Source: Alphaproteobacteria bacterium (lineage in GTDB: Bacteria > Pseudomonadota > Alphaproteobacteria > Rs-D84). From it: DNA of 64,000 nt. Positions 57,637-63,530 of this stretch are shown here, piece by piece. Within the stretch, counting starts at the first letter, position 1. Each line of letters starts with the position of its first letter. The notes under the pieces are model-generated. The model searched no databases. It worked only from the letters and a program-made list of their open reading frames with translations, and was not told where the DNA came from. The stretch is from NCBI GenBank assembly GCA_009777955.1, contig WRKW01000003.1, forward strand, positions 62,001 through 126,000. The letters are read 5' to 3'. The position numbers and the translations under genes were made by a program.

Positions 57637-58341
57637 ATGAAAAAAACAAATTTTATACTTTGTTCCTTGATAACAGCTTTTTGTGTTCAGGGTGCATATG
57701 CCAACCCGTTTGAATATGATTATTATGCTGGGGCGCGATTCGGGTTTACGATGGCTGATTTTAAAGAAACGCAAAATCTTGGTGTGCTTCATTTGCCGGC
57801 TAATATAGATGCTGATTTTACTGTCAAACATTCCGCGTCTATGATGGGTGGTAATATGTTTATGGGGTACAGATTGAACAGAACCTGGTCTTTAGAGGGA
57901 GAGCTTGGATTCCTTGGATCATACTCTGATGAATACGAAGATTTTGAACTTTCTATCAACACACCTTATGTACAGGCGAATCTTTTGGCTAATACAGCCC
58001 GAAAGAAAAGTGGTTGGTTCTATGCTGGTGCTGGTCTTGGTGTGGCATTGCCAACTATATCGGTTACTGATAAATTGAATAATCCAGCTAGTTATCTTGT
58101 CGGAGAAAAAAATAGCACATCCATGTCACCATTGGTTGCTTTTATGGCAGGATACAAAGTAAAGCCAGCCCCCAGATGGTTTGTGGACTTTGGGTATAAG
58201 CTTTCTATGTACCAAGGTGGATCTTTAAGCAGGCTTTTTGCAGATGCAGAAAATGATCCTATCGAGTATGTTCATATGTTTAATACAGTTGGCCTTGTGA
58301 CGAATCATACGTTACAGCTTGGAATTGGATATGAATTCTAG
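57637..58341 (+). CDS. Outer-membrane beta-barrel protein (OmpW/Opacity-type fold), unknown function
   Basis: A 234-residue exported protein with signal peptide KTNFILCSLITAFCVQGAYA. The mature part has alternating hydrophobic strands with Gly and aromatic residues (YYAGARFGFTMADF, NMFMGYRLNRTWSLEGELGF, GWFYAGAGLGVALPTISVT) and ends in a strand with terminal Phe (QLGIGYEF), the signal for outer-membrane insertion. About eight strands fit its length. A TATAAT at 57540-57545 lies about 90 bases upstream. It precedes the collagen-like gene on the same strand by 58 bases. Confidence 0.8.
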   Translation: MKKTNFILCSLITAFCVQGAYANPFEYDYYAGARFGFTMADFKETQNLGVLHLPANIDADFTVKHSASMMGGNMFMGYRLNRTWSLEGELGFLGSYSDEYEDFELSINTPYVQANLLANTARKKSGWFYAGAGLGVALPTISVTDKLNNPASYLVGEKNSTSMSPLVAFMAGYKVKPAPRWFVDFGYKLSMYQGGSLSRLFADAENDPIEYVHMFNTVGLVTNHTLQLGIGYEF

Positions 58342-58399: not shown

Positions 58400-59914
58400 A
58401 TGTTCAACAAAAATAATTCTTATGAAAAATCTTACAGCAGGGTCAGCCTTTGCGCTCTATGCTCTGTGCTCTCGGCCTTGTGGGCGGTGGACGCTGCGAA
58501 CGCAGCTGCAACTGTACGTGCATCTGGTGTTTCGGCATCTGGTGTTGCATCCGCTGGTGCCCCGATAAAGGGTGCGGTGTCATCTACTTCTGGAAGTGTT
58601 GCCAGGGCTGGGTCTTTACCAGCTGTGGCATCGCCGCGTGCGTCAAGCACGGCTGCGGCGGATACCGCGCGCAAGTCAGCTATATATGATTATATAAGAG
58701 GCGGTGGCAGCAGCGGTGGTATTGCGGCGGGCGGCGGTAATGTCATAGGTGGCGGCGGTGTAAATGTTGATTTGTCGGATTATGTCACACAAAGAGAATA
58801 TGATTCCGAAGTTAAGAATATCTGGGAAAAAATTGATCAGCGAGATGATGAATTAGATCATATTTTATCACTGGGGGGAATACCCGGACCCGAAGGAGCC
58901 CAAGGCGAACAAGGTGTGCAGGGTGAACAAGGTTTACAGGGTGTCCAAGGAGCCCAGGGTCATCAGGGTTTAAAAGGCGAAGAAGGGGCATCTATATATG
59001 AACTTGCTGGTGGTGATGCAGAGTGGGGCAATATCGGCAATTGGATGCGAACCGAAGGTATGGTTGGTGAAACTGGTGCCCAGGGTCATCAAGGAGCCGT
59101 CGGTGCCCAAGGAGATCAAGGTGCCCAAGGTGTCCAAGGAGCCACCGGTGTAGGTATCCAAGGTGAACAGGGGGTTCAAGGAGCCCAAGGAACACAGGGT
59201 GTCCAAGGAGCCCAAGGAGCAATTGGTGTCGGTATCCAAGGCGAACAGGGTGTCCAAGGAGCCCAAGGAGTACAGGGAACACAGGGTGTAGCCGGGGCGC
59301 AAGGTGCCACTGGTGCGGGTATACAGGGTGAACAAGGTGAACAGGGTGTCCAAGGAGCCCAGGGTCATCAGGGTTCTGTCGGTGCCCAAGGCTCGCAAGG
59401 TCACCAAGGTACCCCTGGGGTTGGCTCTGATGGTTCGCAAGGCCCACAAGGTTCACAAGGTCATCAGGGTAATCAGGGTAATCAAGGTTCTGCCGGAGCC
59501 GATGGTGCCCAAGGCTCGCAAGGTCACCAAGGAGTACAGGGTTCCCAGGGTGCAGTCGGTGCCCAAGGATCCCAAGGTCACCAAGGTGCAGCCGGAACCA
59601 ATGGTACCCAGGGATCACAAGGATCCCAAGGTGCGCAAGGTATCGCAGGAGCCCAAGGAACACAGGGTTCCCAGGGTGCAGTCGGTGCCCAAGGATCCCA
59701 AGGTCACCAAGGTGCAGCCGGAACCAATGGTACCCAAGGGTCACAAGGATCCCAGGGTGCGCAAGGTGTCGCAGGAGCCCAAGGAACACAGGGTTCCCAG
59801 GGTGCGGCCGGTGCGCAGGGTTCCCAGGGTGCCCAAGGATCTCAGGGCGCGCATGGACGAATTCCCTCTGGATCTGCTACAGCGACAAACTATGTCACTA
59901 TCTGGGTACAGTAA
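58400..59914 (+). CDS. Secreted collagen-like protein with Gly-X-Gln repeats
   Basis: A 504-residue protein. The N-terminus is a long signal sequence (SLCALCSVLSALWAVDAANA) followed by an Ala/Ser/Val-rich region and a Gly-rich stretch (GGGSSGGIAAGGGNVIGGGG near 103-122). A short heptad-like helix (YVTQREYDSEVKNIWEKIDQ), which could start a trimer, comes next. From about 161 to 484 the chain is Gly-X-Y triplets with Gln dominating the Y position (GAQGSQGHQG) and little Pro or Lys. One insert near 198-228 (GASIYELAGGDAEW) interrupts the repeats. It ends HGRIPSGSATATNYVTIWVQ-like, with IWVQ at the very end. GGAGAGAG precedes the ATG. The repeats would form a collagen triple helix, probably a surface fibre; anchor and partner are unknown. 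Confidence 0.85.
   Translation: MFNKNNSYEKSYSRVSLCALCSVLSALWAVDAANAAATVRASGVSASGVASAGAPIKGAVSSTSGSVARAGSLPAVASPRASSTAAADTARKSAIYDYIRGGGSSGGIAAGGGNVIGGGGVNVDLSDYVTQREYDSEVKNIWEKIDQRDDELDHILSLGGIPGPEGAQGEQGVQGEQGLQGVQGAQGHQGLKGEEGASIYELAGGDAEWGNIGNWMRTEGMVGETGAQGHQGAVGAQGDQGAQGVQGATGVGIQGEQGVQGAQGTQGVQGAQGAIGVGIQGEQGVQGAQGVQGTQGVAGAQGATGAGIQGEQGEQGVQGAQGHQGSVGAQGSQGHQGTPGVGSDGSQGPQGSQGHQGNQGNQGSAGADGAQGSQGHQGVQGSQGAVGAQGSQGHQGAAGTNGTQGSQGSQGAQGIAGAQGTQGSQGAVGAQGSQGHQGAAGTNGTQGSQGSQGAQGVAGAQGTQGSQGAAGAQGSQGAQGSQGAHGRIPSGSATATNYVTIWVQ
59537..59788 (+). repeat. Two tandem 126-bp copies within the collagen-like gene
   Basis: Copies at 59537-59662 and 59663-59788, 42 codons each, differ at only a few bases, mostly synonymous plus one Ile/Val change; a third partial copy starts at 59789. 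Being in frame, they lengthen the triple helix without breaking it. Confidence 0.85.
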
Positions 59915-59935
59915 TAATAATATCGGACAACAAGT

Positions 59936-59965
59936 TGCGGCGCGAAATGCGCCGCAGTTTTTTTT
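59936..59965 (+). terminator. Intrinsic terminator of the collagen-like gene
   Basis: GCGGCGC and GCGCCGC pair around GAAAT, followed by AG and eight T. Confidence 0.9.
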
Positions 59966-59966
59966 C

Positions 59967-59994
59967 TTGCGACCAATTTGCCATTGTGTATAAT
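59967..59994 (+). promoter_or_regulatory. Promoter of the methyltransferase-glycosyltransferase gene
   Basis: TTGCGA, 16 bases, TATAAT, directly after the collagen-gene terminator. It gives the fusion gene its own transcript starting near 60001. Confidence 0.75.
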
Positions 59995-60016
59995 CGCAAG
60001 AAAAGGCGGTGAAAAT

Positions 60017-61585
60017 ATGATAGATCCGGTAAAAAGAACTTTCATTATAAACAAACTTATACGCGATAATAATCTGAAATCATATCTTGAAATAGGGGTT
60101 TCAAATCCATACGTTAACTATTTGGGTGTGAAATGCGCACGAAAAGTATCTGTGGATCCTTGCGAATTATGCGAATTTTTTTCAAAAGAGGCTATAAGCG
60201 GGTTCAAGCAATTCATAGATCACAAAGTAACGTCTGATGAATTTTTTTCAAAAAATACGGAAACATTCGACATAATATTCATTGATGGTGACCATTCTTA
60301 TGAACAGTCCCTGCGCGATCTTAATAATTCGTTGAAAATTGTTAATCCGGGTGGATTCATAGTGTTACATGATGCATGTCCGCCTTGTTATGAAAACACC
60401 CAGGTTGAAAACCTGCACAGTGGAAAGCCGTATAATGGAGAGGTTTGGAAAACCATAGTATCCGCAGTTCGTCAATCAAAAGGAGAGCTGAAAATAAAAA
60501 CCCTTATTTGGGACTGGGGCGTTACGGTAATAAAAAAGATATCGGATTATGCGGTTGAAATTGTTCCGGAAAATCTGGATTATTACAGAGATTATAGCAT
60601 TCCGGCATTGAATCCGGAATATGACATCTGTTCTTTGAATAATGAAAAAGTTTCTTATTTCACATCACTGTATAACACGCCGCAAAAATTAATAGAACGC
60701 ACGACCCGAACAGTATTGAACCAAACAAATCCCAATTGGGAATGGGTGTTGGTTGATGATTCTGATAATAATGCGGATTCCGAAAGACTTTCGAAATACT
60801 TCGTTTTTTTAAACGATGATCGCATAAGGTATTTTAAATACAGCCACAGGTCAGATGGATTTATAGGGGAAGCAAAGCACCGTGCGGCATCGCTTTGTCG
60901 TGGCACGTATCTTGCGGAATTGGATCATGACGATCTTCTTATGCCGAACATTACAGCTGATATATTAAATAACTCTGCTGGGTTTGATTTTATATACTCT
61001 AACTGTGCATCTGTAATAGTAGCTGATGATGAAACCTTATCAACCGGTGAAATATACGGGGAAGGGTTCGCCATGGGATATGGCAGCTATCGCACTACAT
61101 TGGCCACAAATCCGTTGAATGGTTTTGACCATGAATATCAGGAATGTGTATGCTGTCCGATAAATCCGAAAACAATCCGACATATAGTCGGCGTGCCAAA
61201 TCATATAAGGGTCTGGAACAGGGAATTTTATAACGCCATACAGGGACATAATCCGGATCTTTGGGTTGTGGATGATTACGAGCTGGTTTTACGGTCGTTT
61301 CTTGCGGGCGGAAAGTTCCTGCATCTGGATGTTTTGGGATATCTGCAAACATCAACCGGCCAGAACACTACTGATAGCCGCCGTTCTAAAATCCAAATAA
61401 TTCTTGCCGCGATTGTCGCCGCCAACGATGAAAATATAAAGATGGAATTTGCAGCAAGAAAAATGAATGACTGGGCATATGAATATCACAAAGATCGTTT
61501 CGGATTCCAATCGTTACATTACTGGGATGTGCCGACCCAAAAGGATGCCTTGCGCGCGAATGATATATGGCCAGAGAAGAAATAG
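60017..61585 (+). CDS. Fusion of a SAM methyltransferase and a GT2 glycosyltransferase
   Basis: A 522-residue two-domain enzyme. Residues 1-190 resemble class I methyltransferases of the Methyltransf_24 type: SYLEIGVSNPYVNYLG near 21, FDIIFIDGDHSYEQSLRDL near 84 and IVNPGGFIVLHDACPPC. Residues from about 210 form a GT-A glycosyltransferase: SLYNTPQKLIERTTRTVLNQ, VLVDDSDNNADS near 240, GEAKHRAASLCRGTYLAELD-type donor site ending in DHDDLL near 301. The start at 60017 has AAGGCGGTGA upstream; a TTG at 59978 overlaps the promoter. PAP2 follows with no gap. Such fusions occur in polysaccharide or protein-glycosylation loci; the target is unknown. Confidence 0.82.
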   Translation: MIDPVKRTFIINKLIRDNNLKSYLEIGVSNPYVNYLGVKCARKVSVDPCELCEFFSKEAISGFKQFIDHKVTSDEFFSKNTETFDIIFIDGDHSYEQSLRDLNNSLKIVNPGGFIVLHDACPPCYENTQVENLHSGKPYNGEVWKTIVSAVRQSKGELKIKTLIWDWGVTVIKKISDYAVEIVPENLDYYRDYSIPALNPEYDICSLNNEKVSYFTSLYNTPQKLIERTTRTVLNQTNPNWEWVLVDDSDNNADSERLSKYFVFLNDDRIRYFKYSHRSDGFIGEAKHRAASLCRGTYLAELDHDDLLMPNITADILNNSAGFDFIYSNCASVIVADDETLSTGEIYGEGFAMGYGSYRTTLATNPLNGFDHEYQECVCCPINPKTIRHIVGVPNHIRVWNREFYNAIQGHNPDLWVVDDYELVLRSFLAGGKFLHLDVLGYLQTSTGQNTTDSRRSKIQIILAAIVAANDENIKMEFAARKMNDWAYEYHKDRFGFQSLHYWDVPTQKDALRANDIWPEKK

Positions 61586-62254
61586 ATGTTCTTAACAAAA
61601 GAAAATAAAATCAAATGGAAATTTTTGGGCGCGGCACTTGTCGCTGTGGTATTGCTTTGTCTGGCGGGGATTCTGTGGCTTGATAAGCACATATTCATTT
61701 TTTTACGCGAATTTGACGGATTATGGGTCAGAATTTTCCAGTTTGCAGGAAGTTCTAAATTTTGGCTTTTCGCATCAATCACAGTATTCGGTATCGCAGG
61801 TTTTTTGTATATAATGTTTTCCAAATTTTGGATTGGCTTTTCCAACAAAGCTCGTCTTTTGTCCCGTATATCTGTTTTTGTTTTCATTTCTGTCTTGCTT
61901 TCCGGTGCGGCGACAGGTGTATTAAAGTTTGTGTTTGGAAGAATGCGCCCCATACTATGGGAAGTTTTCGGCCAAACCGGCTTTTATCCTTTGAACGCGG
62001 AATGGGTGCTAAATTCGTTTCCCAGTGGCCATGCGACCGCAAGTTTTGCTGGTCTTGTCATGATAGGGCTTTGGTTTCCACGTTTAAAATGGGCGACATG
62101 GACGCTGGCGGTTATGGCGGGACTGTCACGCATAAGTCTGGGGGCTCATTGGCCGTCCGATGTCCTGTTGGGGGCGTTTATTGGTATGGTTACAGCTGAT
62201 TTTGTATTTTCAATCTTTAAGCGATCCAGGCGCATGGATTTTTTTGCAAATTAG
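61586..62254 (+). CDS. PAP2-family membrane phosphatase
   Basis: An integral membrane phosphatase of 222 residues with about six helices, probably acting on lipid phosphates such as undecaprenyl diphosphate or lipid A. The three PAP2 motifs are intact: KFVFGRMRP (114-122), PSGH near 146 in NSFPSGHATASF, and SRISLGAHWPSD with His188 and Asp192. The ATG directly follows the stop of the fusion gene, so the two are coupled. In that setting, recycling of the lipid carrier used in glycan export is a reasonable guess. Confidence 0.9.
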   Translation: MFLTKENKIKWKFLGAALVAVVLLCLAGILWLDKHIFIFLREFDGLWVRIFQFAGSSKFWLFASITVFGIAGFLYIMFSKFWIGFSNKARLLSRISVFVFISVLLSGAATGVLKFVFGRMRPILWEVFGQTGFYPLNAEWVLNSFPSGHATASFAGLVMIGLWFPRLKWATWTLAVMAGLSRISLGAHWPSDVLLGAFIGMVTADFVFSIFKRSRRMDFFAN

Positions 62255-62297: not shown

Positions 62298-63530
62298 ATG
62301 AAAAAACAAAAGTCTTTATTAATTCGGGCTGTTGCGGTTTTTGGAATTCCGACAGTAATCTTTATTTCTGGCGAATCAAAAGCTGCGACGACAACGGTGC
62401 GGAGAGAACCCGCCCCGATACATATTCAGAATAATATAAATATCACCAGTCGACCCCAAATCCACGATACACGGCCATCCCCCGATGTGCAGCAGCTAAG
62501 GTATACGGAAGAACCGGCACCTGTAACAAAACCTGTACCGGCACCTGCGCCGGTGGCAAAGCCTGTCCAAAGGTCAGAGCCTGTACGCCAACCCGCACCG
62601 CAACCTGCGCCAAGAAAGGCCGGTAATAAATCGACAATTGCGGATCCTTTCTTCCAGCCAGCCCAGGGTAACATAGGAAGTGTGACAGAAATCGGCTGGT
62701 CAAAGAATTCGTATAATTTCAAAATCCCGGCGTTAAATCCGGAAATTGTGGATAATCCGGGTGGGTTTTTCCCCGGCATTACCGGAAATTGGAAATCCAC
62801 GTCATTATATATAAAAGAAGATTTGTCGTACGGAATTACGGATGATTTATCCATAATCGGCAGCATAACGTACAGCATGGATAATTTCAGAATGGGCTGG
62901 GGTGATGCCGATGGTTCGGTGGATAAAGGTAAAGATAGCGGATTCGGCCAATACGGTATCGGTATTCAATGGCAGTTTATGGATAGTTCTGAATGGATTG
63001 GATATATAGGAACTTATTATCAGCATCAGGAAATGGCAAATCTGATTATATTGGATACAAAAATTGGCAAAAAGGTTAATAACTCTACCGTTGTTTATGG
63101 AATCGGTCGTTTGTGGGGTGTAAACTGGCGAACGGATTCTTATGGCAACGGGCTAGAGGATGCTGATGGCTATGTGGCGTATTTGGCATTGGAAACAGAA
63201 GTTGATATATCGTTGTTTATCGAGGGTGGGGTCGGCGTTTTCACTGCATTGGATGATCAATGGTCGCTGGAACTGGAAACACTTTTGGGTGATTACGAAT
63301 GGCACAGCCAGTTGGGCATTTCTGCAAAGGTCAGCTTTCAACCGACAGACCGGTTTTCGATAGGGCTTTTGGGCAGAATGTCAATATGGGATTCCGCCAA
63401 TAGCAAGGACGATATCGGGTTATACATGTGGAATGATAAGAAAAATCTTGCCCCAGGATTTGTCGGAAATGCAAAGATGAAAGATTATTCCGATATGTCG
63501 CTTGGATTAAGGATACAATTGTATTTTTAA
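62298..63530 (+). CDS. Predicted outer-membrane protein with Pro-rich N-terminal linker
   Basis: A 410-residue exported protein I do not recognise. The signal peptide (LLIRAVAVFGIPTVIFISGE) is followed near residues 70-110 by a Pro/Val/Ala/Lys linker (EEPAPVTKPVPAPAPVAKPV) of the sort that spans peptidoglycan. The remaining 290 residues alternate strands with aromatic and Gly residues (LSYGITDDLSIIGSITYS, FGQYGIGIQWQFMDSSEW, DMSLGLRIQLYF) and end in Phe, so a beta-barrel is likely. AAAAGG precedes the ATG. A similar but partial gene follows. Confidence 0.75.
   Translation: MKKQKSLLIRAVAVFGIPTVIFISGESKAATTTVRREPAPIHIQNNINITSRPQIHDTRPSPDVQQLRYTEEPAPVTKPVPAPAPVAKPVQRSEPVRQPAPQPAPRKAGNKSTIADPFFQPAQGNIGSVTEIGWSKNSYNFKIPALNPEIVDNPGGFFPGITGNWKSTSLYIKEDLSYGITDDLSIIGSITYSMDNFRMGWGDADGSVDKGKDSGFGQYGIGIQWQFMDSSEWIGYIGTYYQHQEMANLIILDTKIGKKVNNSTVVYGIGRLWGVNWRTDSYGNGLEDADGYVAYLALETEVDISLFIEGGVGVFTALDDQWSLELETLLGDYEWHSQLGISAKVSFQPTDRFSIGLLGRMSIWDSANSKDDIGLYMWNDKKNLAPGFVGNAKMKDYSDMSLGLRIQLYF

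Follow-up and report, generated by a model that had tools for sequence, protein, structure and literature searches.

Collagen-like proteins are widespread in bacteria and phages, but how they are stabilized and decorated is understood for just a handful of spore formers. In the Bacillus exosporium, glycans of the BclA type include an O-methylated sugar (anthrose), and the corresponding transferases are separate genes without a fused methyltransferase. In Clostridioides difficile, SgtA, encoded next to bclA3, places O-GlcNAc onto Thr of the BclA3 collagen repeats in vitro (PMC7157674). Here we describe a locus in a 64,000-nucleotide stretch of an alphaproteobacterial genome (GCA_009777955.1, contig WRKW01000003.1, positions 62,001 to 126,000, forward strand; hereafter the window), in which the gene for a collagen-like secreted protein is followed by a gene joining a methyltransferase to a glycosyltransferase of family 2 (GT2), and then by a PAP2-family phosphatase gene. 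The original prediction had placed these three genes here from the sequence alone, with approximately 100 G-X-Y triplets in the collagen-like product, and Pfam matches bear out all three. We estimate a probability of roughly two in three that the fusion serves specifically to modify collagen: the GT2 half would glycosylate the G-X-Y chain and the methyltransferase half would O-methylate the added sugar.

Association of the fusion gene with collagen genes

Among 183 genomes of the family, fusion orthologs were recovered in 11 (one cut by a contig end), distributed over 7 of 13 genera, while collagen genes were recovered in 58, 41 of them above the Pfam cut-off. All 11 fusion-bearing genomes carry collagen (Fisher's exact test, p=2e-6, or 2e-8 with the Pfam cut-off, shared ancestry ignored), so that the pair does co-occur in relatives, as the original prediction envisaged. 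The patterns it had named as contrary, a fusion found mainly without collagen or lying among lipopolysaccharide (LPS) genes, were not recovered: no LPS or capsule cluster stands beside a fusion ortholog in the loci read, and an LPS-cluster setting for the enzyme was rejected.

Physical linkage follows the same pattern. Collagen lies no more than 1.5 kb from the fusion in 5 of the 11 family genomes (G000, G005, G044, G078, and G021), and likewise within 1.5 kb in a Streptococcaceae metagenome-assembled genome (MAG; G243); a second Streptococcaceae genome (G245), recovered from among the relatives of G243, encodes an LPxTG collagen of 2460 aa at a distance of 1.05 kb. This distribution suggests a transfer of fusion and collagen across phyla into the Streptococcaceae. 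In both of those genomes (contigs L016 and L096), the fusion stands beside G-X-Q collagens with LPxTG-like ends. Against random placement with an assumed background of 3.3%, the linkage has p ~2e-6, and at 22 loci centered on other GT2 genes no collagen was found nearby (p=0.001 vs. fusion loci). The collagen gene is upstream and co-directional in G000, G005, and G243, and downstream and convergent in G021, G044, and G078; because order and orientation vary among genomes, the linkage must have been rebuilt more than once. G010 and G021, from one genus, share the same DedA–collagen junction, with the fusion there in G021 only. In three further genomes (G240, G015, and G018; MAG contigs L011, L014, and L057), the contig ends 0–0.3 kb from the fusion or inside it, as would be expected where collagen repeats break assembly. 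Complete co-occurrence, together with repeated linkage in several arrangements, lends support to the dedicated modification system that had been raised as a possibility from the sequence alone.

The association extends to plasmids and phages, where the best matches in public records span the glycosyltransferase (GT) half only. A Peribacillus plasmid carries a GT, 37% identical in its domain, that lies 1.2 kb ahead of a collagen gene, within an island that also includes BclB-related exosporium genes and sugar-nucleotide genes. Related Priestia plasmids have a broken GT frame; the interruption in the Priestia megaterium copy (L052:9629-11158) probably marks a pseudogene, or else stems from a sequencing error. 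A viral profile scan recovered 229 GT relatives, 80 of which were kept, and collagen (at least 10 triplets) occurs within 6 kb in 40 of these 80 loci. After removal of redundancy the count is 16 of 37, with collagen always co-directional with the GT. None of 80 phoH and none of 80 thymidylate synthase (td) control loci, drawn from the same viral collection, has a collagen nearby (p=1e-5 and 6e-7). Of 80 tail-sheath loci picked independently of both genes, two encode the GT, and just those two encode a collagen. Of 15 GT records that lack a collagen close by, 8 encode one at another place on the contig.

Most viral GTs are ~600 aa long with a different N-terminal half, and their neighbors include DUF6445 and 2-oxoglutarate (2OG)-Fe(II) oxygenases in many loci and a stand-alone Methyltransf_24 in two. 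Viral loci such as L127, L146, L160, L168, and L187 contain cassettes of collagen-like genes, DUF6445, 2OG-Fe(II) oxygenases, and GT2, sometimes with GT17 or Methyltransf_24; by gene content, these look like modules for collagen hydroxylation and glycosylation. One viral contig (L122) encodes a complete methyltransferase–GT fusion, with no collagen on its 26.8 kb. The conserved collagen-linked element is the GT2 half, which occurs in phages and in the Bacillaceae exosporium island without this methyltransferase, and we regard the link of this enzyme family to collagen as genuine. Sampling of other Bacillota and other Pseudomonadota (398 genomes each) gave no further member, so the subfamily is rare in bacteria. 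It is probable that this unnamed GT2 subfamily decorates bacterial and viral collagens with sugars.

The window locus and its predicted products

The 504-aa collagen-like protein matches Pfam Collagen with E=2e-44 (149.5 bits vs. a curated cut-off of 27.2). Its 102 triplets occupy residues 160-488, with a longest unbroken run of 48, whereas 1000 shuffles of the residues in this region gave no run above 10. Gln occupies Y in 69 of ~100 triplets, X is Ala, Ser, Val, or Thr, and the repeats hold 5 Pro and 1 Lys; the earlier reading that Gln, Ser, and Thr stand in place of Pro and Lys is thus upheld. Of ~30 hydroxyl residues, 26 are at X, usually preceding Gln. The N-terminus has a signal-peptide-like start, followed by a short segment that is, by inspection only, coiled-coil-like. 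The 1.02 Mb window genome contains two other collagen loci, and the family includes gut Alphaproteobacteria.

In the fusion, Methyltransf_24 (PF13578) matches residues 44-119 (E=5e-12; 47 bits vs. a cut-off of 26.3) and Glycos_transf_2 (PF00535) residues 217-311 (E=6e-13; 49.4 bits vs. 23.3). The GT2 half contains DHDD at 303-306, invariant in the alignment, NPKTIRHIVGVPNH at 383-396, and DDYEL at 419-423; the subfamily signature reads S.FT...QT..WEW...DDS, AELDHDD, NPKTIRHIVGVPNH.R.W, ADDYEL. A structure model from 11 sequences had a poor GT half and was replaced by one built from 50 related sequences (mean predicted local distance difference test score, pLDDT, 90.9; predicted template modeling score, pTM, 0.89). 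The modeling that the original prediction proposed has yielded a confident structure. In Foldseek comparisons with the PDB, the solved structures nearest to the GT half are chondroitin polymerase, TarP, RmlT, SpsA, and WrtF, and the matches of the methyltransferase half include O-methyltransferase-like folds such as 3r3h, SafC, and CCoAOMT.

The methyltransferase motifs are retained in nearly all alphaproteobacterial fusions (with one D-to-N change, in G078) and in viral L122. Both Streptococcaceae fusions have changes at the putative catalytic residues (IDGDH to INGVH or INADH, and HD to QN or FN), and this half of the protein looks degenerate in them, while the GT motifs are all intact; the GT would therefore be the constant part, and methylation dispensable. 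The methyltransferase half is a lineage-specific accessory that probably O-methylates the sugar. Its target would be a sugar hydroxyl, by analogy with the anthrose-type glycans of BclA, and sugar O-methylation is in line with the Foldseek placement near O-methyltransferases.

Dedicated collagen modification is a reading that draws on what the sequences show: the domains, the conserved motifs, the co-occurrence of the genes, their repeated linkage, and a GT subfamily that also stands beside phage and exosporium collagens. What the enzyme does, which residue and which sugar are involved, where the reaction takes place, and how it affects stability we infer as follows. In the cytoplasm, the GT2 half would take a sugar from a nucleotide donor and attach it to the G-X-Y chain while this is still nascent and unfolded, with Ser/Thr side chains as the likeliest acceptors, and the methyltransferase half would then O-methylate the added sugar. 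The chain would be exported, trimerized through the coiled-coil-like segment, and displayed at the outer membrane, where the glycan may set the surface chemistry of the helix. The glycan could also replace hydroxyproline and charge pairs in stabilizing a charge-poor, proline-poor triple helix. Such a mechanism suggests how helices of this composition could be stable, and would be useful for recombinant collagen design.

The neighboring features (Table 1) qualify how this locus is organized. The original prediction assigned the fusion gene its own promoter, and a terminator-like hairpin followed by a promoter-like site in front of the gene supports this, both being consensus matches only; a longer TTG frame of the fusion, from 59978, overlaps the same zone. 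A single operon of collagen and fusion was rejected, given the terminator and promoter between them and the convergent order in three relatives. Fusion and PAP2 are probably co-transcribed in the window genome, because 0 bases separate the stop codon of the one from the start codon of the other. However, G001 and G004, of the window's genus, have the order collagen–PAP2–outer-membrane protein with no fusion in between, and because PAP2 stays beside collagen where the fusion is absent, it belongs to the collagen locus. PAP2 as a component of the enzyme module was accordingly rejected.

Table 1. Features of the collagen/fusion locus, in window positions.
Feature	Position	Strand	Basis
Outer-membrane beta-barrel protein (OMP_b-brl, PF13505), directly upstream of collagen gene	57637..58341	+	Pfam 9e-14
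Collagen-like secreted protein, 504 aa	58400..59914	+	Pfam Collagen PF01391
Repeat region of 102 G-X-Y triplets, briefly interrupted in places; Y mostly Gln, Lys/Pro almost absent	58877..59863	+	
C-terminal tail of 16 residues, ending NYVTIWVQ	59864..59911	+	
Intrinsic-terminator-like hairpin 3' of collagen gene, 13-bp stem and T-run	59932..59960	+	hairpin z=-2.3
Promoter-like site TTGCGA-16-TATAAT before fusion gene	59967..59994	+	consensus match only
Methyltransferase-24/GT2 glycosyltransferase fusion, 522 aa from ATG	60017..61585	+	Pfam, alignment, structure model
Class I S-adenosylmethionine (SAM) methyltransferase half, ~residues 7-176, motifs LEIGVSNP, FIDGDHSYE, LHD	60035..60544	+	Pfam, Foldseek, motif alignment
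GT2 (GT-A) half, ~residues 212-480	60650..61456	+	Pfam, alignments, Foldseek PDB GT2 enzymes
PAP2-family membrane phosphatase	61586..62254	+	Pfam E=5e-28
Outer-membrane-like protein, 410 aa, after PAP2 in window genome, G001, G004	62298..63530	+	

Two further features recur in relatives. A tail of the form YATIW(V/I)(E/Q), seen at L010:7330-7881, L012:9618-10019, L013:9978-11018, L056:12344-12826, L058:9990-10919, L066:11265-12527, L088:6223-6654, and L115:9876-10904, is common to fusion-adjacent collagens and to some non-collagen secreted proteins with an IASxxYVD start, and is possibly a surface-sorting or assembly signal. In G003, G005, G078, G021, G044, and G240, an OMP_b-brl homolog immediately precedes a collagen gene; small beta-barrel genes occupy this position in most relatives, mainly before collagens with an A(S/A)(S/T)VR start (L010:3666-4403, L013:14026-14763, L015:2568-3344, L056:16266-16964, L098:6530-7270). 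The beta-barrel protein is a possible anchor or secretion partner of the collagen.

Acceptor residue and rival explanations

Several observations weigh against a dedicated collagen-modifying enzyme. The nearest collagen in G003 is 5.5 kb from the fusion, and the fusions of G001 and G020 have no linked collagen (the G020 contig ends 1.7 kb away). Collagen occurs in 58 genomes and the fusion in only 11, so most collagens do not need it. The p-values overstate independence, since the genomes and the viral contigs are related. Phage GTs cluster with tail fibers for other reasons too, and an unrelated GT2 family of phages, meant as a control, gave only one locus. No export or sugar-nucleotide genes lie within the window collagen/fusion locus. 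Finally, the combined Ser and Thr content shows no relation to the fusion within genera (p=0.5), a surprising result for a Ser/Thr acceptor.

A different role for the fusion, in building or capping a cell-surface polysaccharide or a lipid-linked glycan (LPS, capsule, or undecaprenyl-linked), would have PAP2 recycling the lipid phosphate and would explain the closeness to collagen by a shared surface-gene region. The GT2 family is dominated by polysaccharide enzymes, the solved structures named above are nearest to the GT half, the PAP2 start abuts the fusion, and GTs in pelagiphage tail-fiber regions have been ascribed to changes in host LPS (PMC7029224). We consider this role unlikely, however: no LPS or capsule cluster adjoins the orthologs, PAP2 remains with the collagen gene where the fusion is absent, and the association with collagen recurs in an LPS-less phylum (Bacillota) and in phages, but at 0 of 22 other GT2 loci. 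It is also conceivable, though distinctly improbable, that GT and collagen merely travel together on phages and mobile islands as surface-variation genes, with no enzyme–substrate relation. The patchy distribution across genera, the transfer to Streptococcaceae, and the abundance in phages would fit shared cargo, but the linkage re-forms in opposite orientations, and hitch-hiking does not predict that fusion and collagen co-occur unlinked, as in G001 and G020. Furthermore, collagen composition varies with fusion presence within genera, and in the loci read we noticed nothing resembling an integrase or transposase next to the fusion.

If the fusion does modify collagen, the modified residue might be Gln at Y rather than Ser/Thr, giving a collagen with glycosylated or methylated glutamine. 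Collagens of fusion-bearing genomes differ from others in median charged fraction (0.115 vs. 0.393) and in Gln at Y (0.46 vs. 0.29), and both differences persist in within-genus permutation (p=0.02 for charge and p=0.0025 for Gln at Y, the strongest within-genus correlate; approximately nine measures, uncorrected). Pro content does not differ between collagens with and without the fusion. Enrichment of Ser/Thr was rejected as a substrate signature: significant when all genomes are compared (S+T, p=0.05; Thr at Y, p=0.02), it disappears within genera. Gln at Y also dominates the GT-linked collagens of Alphaproteobacteria, Peribacillus (72-90%), Streptococcaceae (67-73%), and many phages (50-79%). 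Nevertheless, Gln is frequent in fusion-free collagens as well, and two GT-linked phage collagens (L187 and L200) are built of G-T/S-S triplets and are poor in Gln. Ser/Thr alone is thus found in every case, and Gln usually predominates. To our knowledge, no glycosyltransferase of this type acts on Gln, which we also count against a Gln acceptor, and we regard one as very improbable. By analogy, the SgtA precedent (PMC7157674) leads us to favor O-glycosylation of Ser/Thr, with Gln kept as the alternative. A bolder version, and a long shot, is that the AELDHDD...NPKTIRHIVGVPNH GT2 subfamily glycosylates collagens throughout prokaryotes and phages, at the Gln of G-X-Gln repeats; the glycan-stabilized helix would then need neither hydroxyproline nor charge pairs, and would involve a new side-chain chemistry, with methyltransferase and 2OG-oxygenase partners swapped between lineages.

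Comparison with known systems

No paper on the fusion enzyme or its GT family was found (subscription literature was outside the search), and both the methyltransferase fusion and a GT subfamily common to phages, exosporium, and proteobacteria appear undescribed in the papers searched. If dedicated collagen modification is correct, the signature would allow glycosylated collagens to be predicted in bacteria and viruses, among them aquatic phages in which tail-region transferases have been attributed to host LPS.

The two halves have more distant relatives in other pathways. Chondroitin polymerase, TarP, RmlT, and WrtF share the GT-A fold and a DxD-type motif with the GT half, but at 12-19% identity (Foldseek), and they are not linked to collagen; we know of no GT2 polysaccharide enzyme with the NPKTIRHIVGVPNH signature. 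The metal-dependent O-methyltransferases 3r3h, SafC, and CCoAOMT have the same class I fold, with FIDGDHxYE and HD at the usual catalytic or metal-binding positions of the methyltransferase half, which differs from them in its fusion to a GT and in its motif I (LEIGVSNP). Dedicated collagen glycosylation is known from the mimivirus hydroxylase/glucosyltransferase and animal COLGALT/PLOD, and the phage relatives have 2OG-Fe(II) oxygenases beside GT and collagen. However, those enzymes modify hydroxylysine, whereas the window repeats have one Lys and the enzyme is a GT2 with a methyltransferase.

Membership in the BclA, SgtA, or Lcl systems was rejected, as the defining features of each are absent. 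The match to the Legionella Lcl adhesin (NF046116) is driven by the repeats and scores 208.5 bits against a cut-off of 500. The likeness to BclA lies in collagen-like surface filaments glycosylated by dedicated transferases, and the BclB-type island of Peribacillus carries a GT of the same subfamily as the fusion; the window collagen, however, is without the exosporium targeting segment of BclA, and has only its short tail after the repeats where BclA has a C-terminal globular trimerization domain of ~135 aa. The resemblance to SgtA and BclA3 consists of a GT-A fold (WcaA-like in SgtA) and a gene adjoining that of a collagen-like surface protein. SgtA has an N-terminal GT and C-terminal tetratricopeptide repeats (TPR), without a methyltransferase, whereas the fusion has an N-terminal methyltransferase and a C-terminal GT, with no TPR match in Pfam; the acceptor triplets also differ, being G-P-T on a spore protein for SgtA and G-X-Q in a non-sporing Gram-negative for the window repeats. 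The fusion would act in the manner of SgtA-type dedicated collagen glycosylation, while standing apart from that family by architecture.

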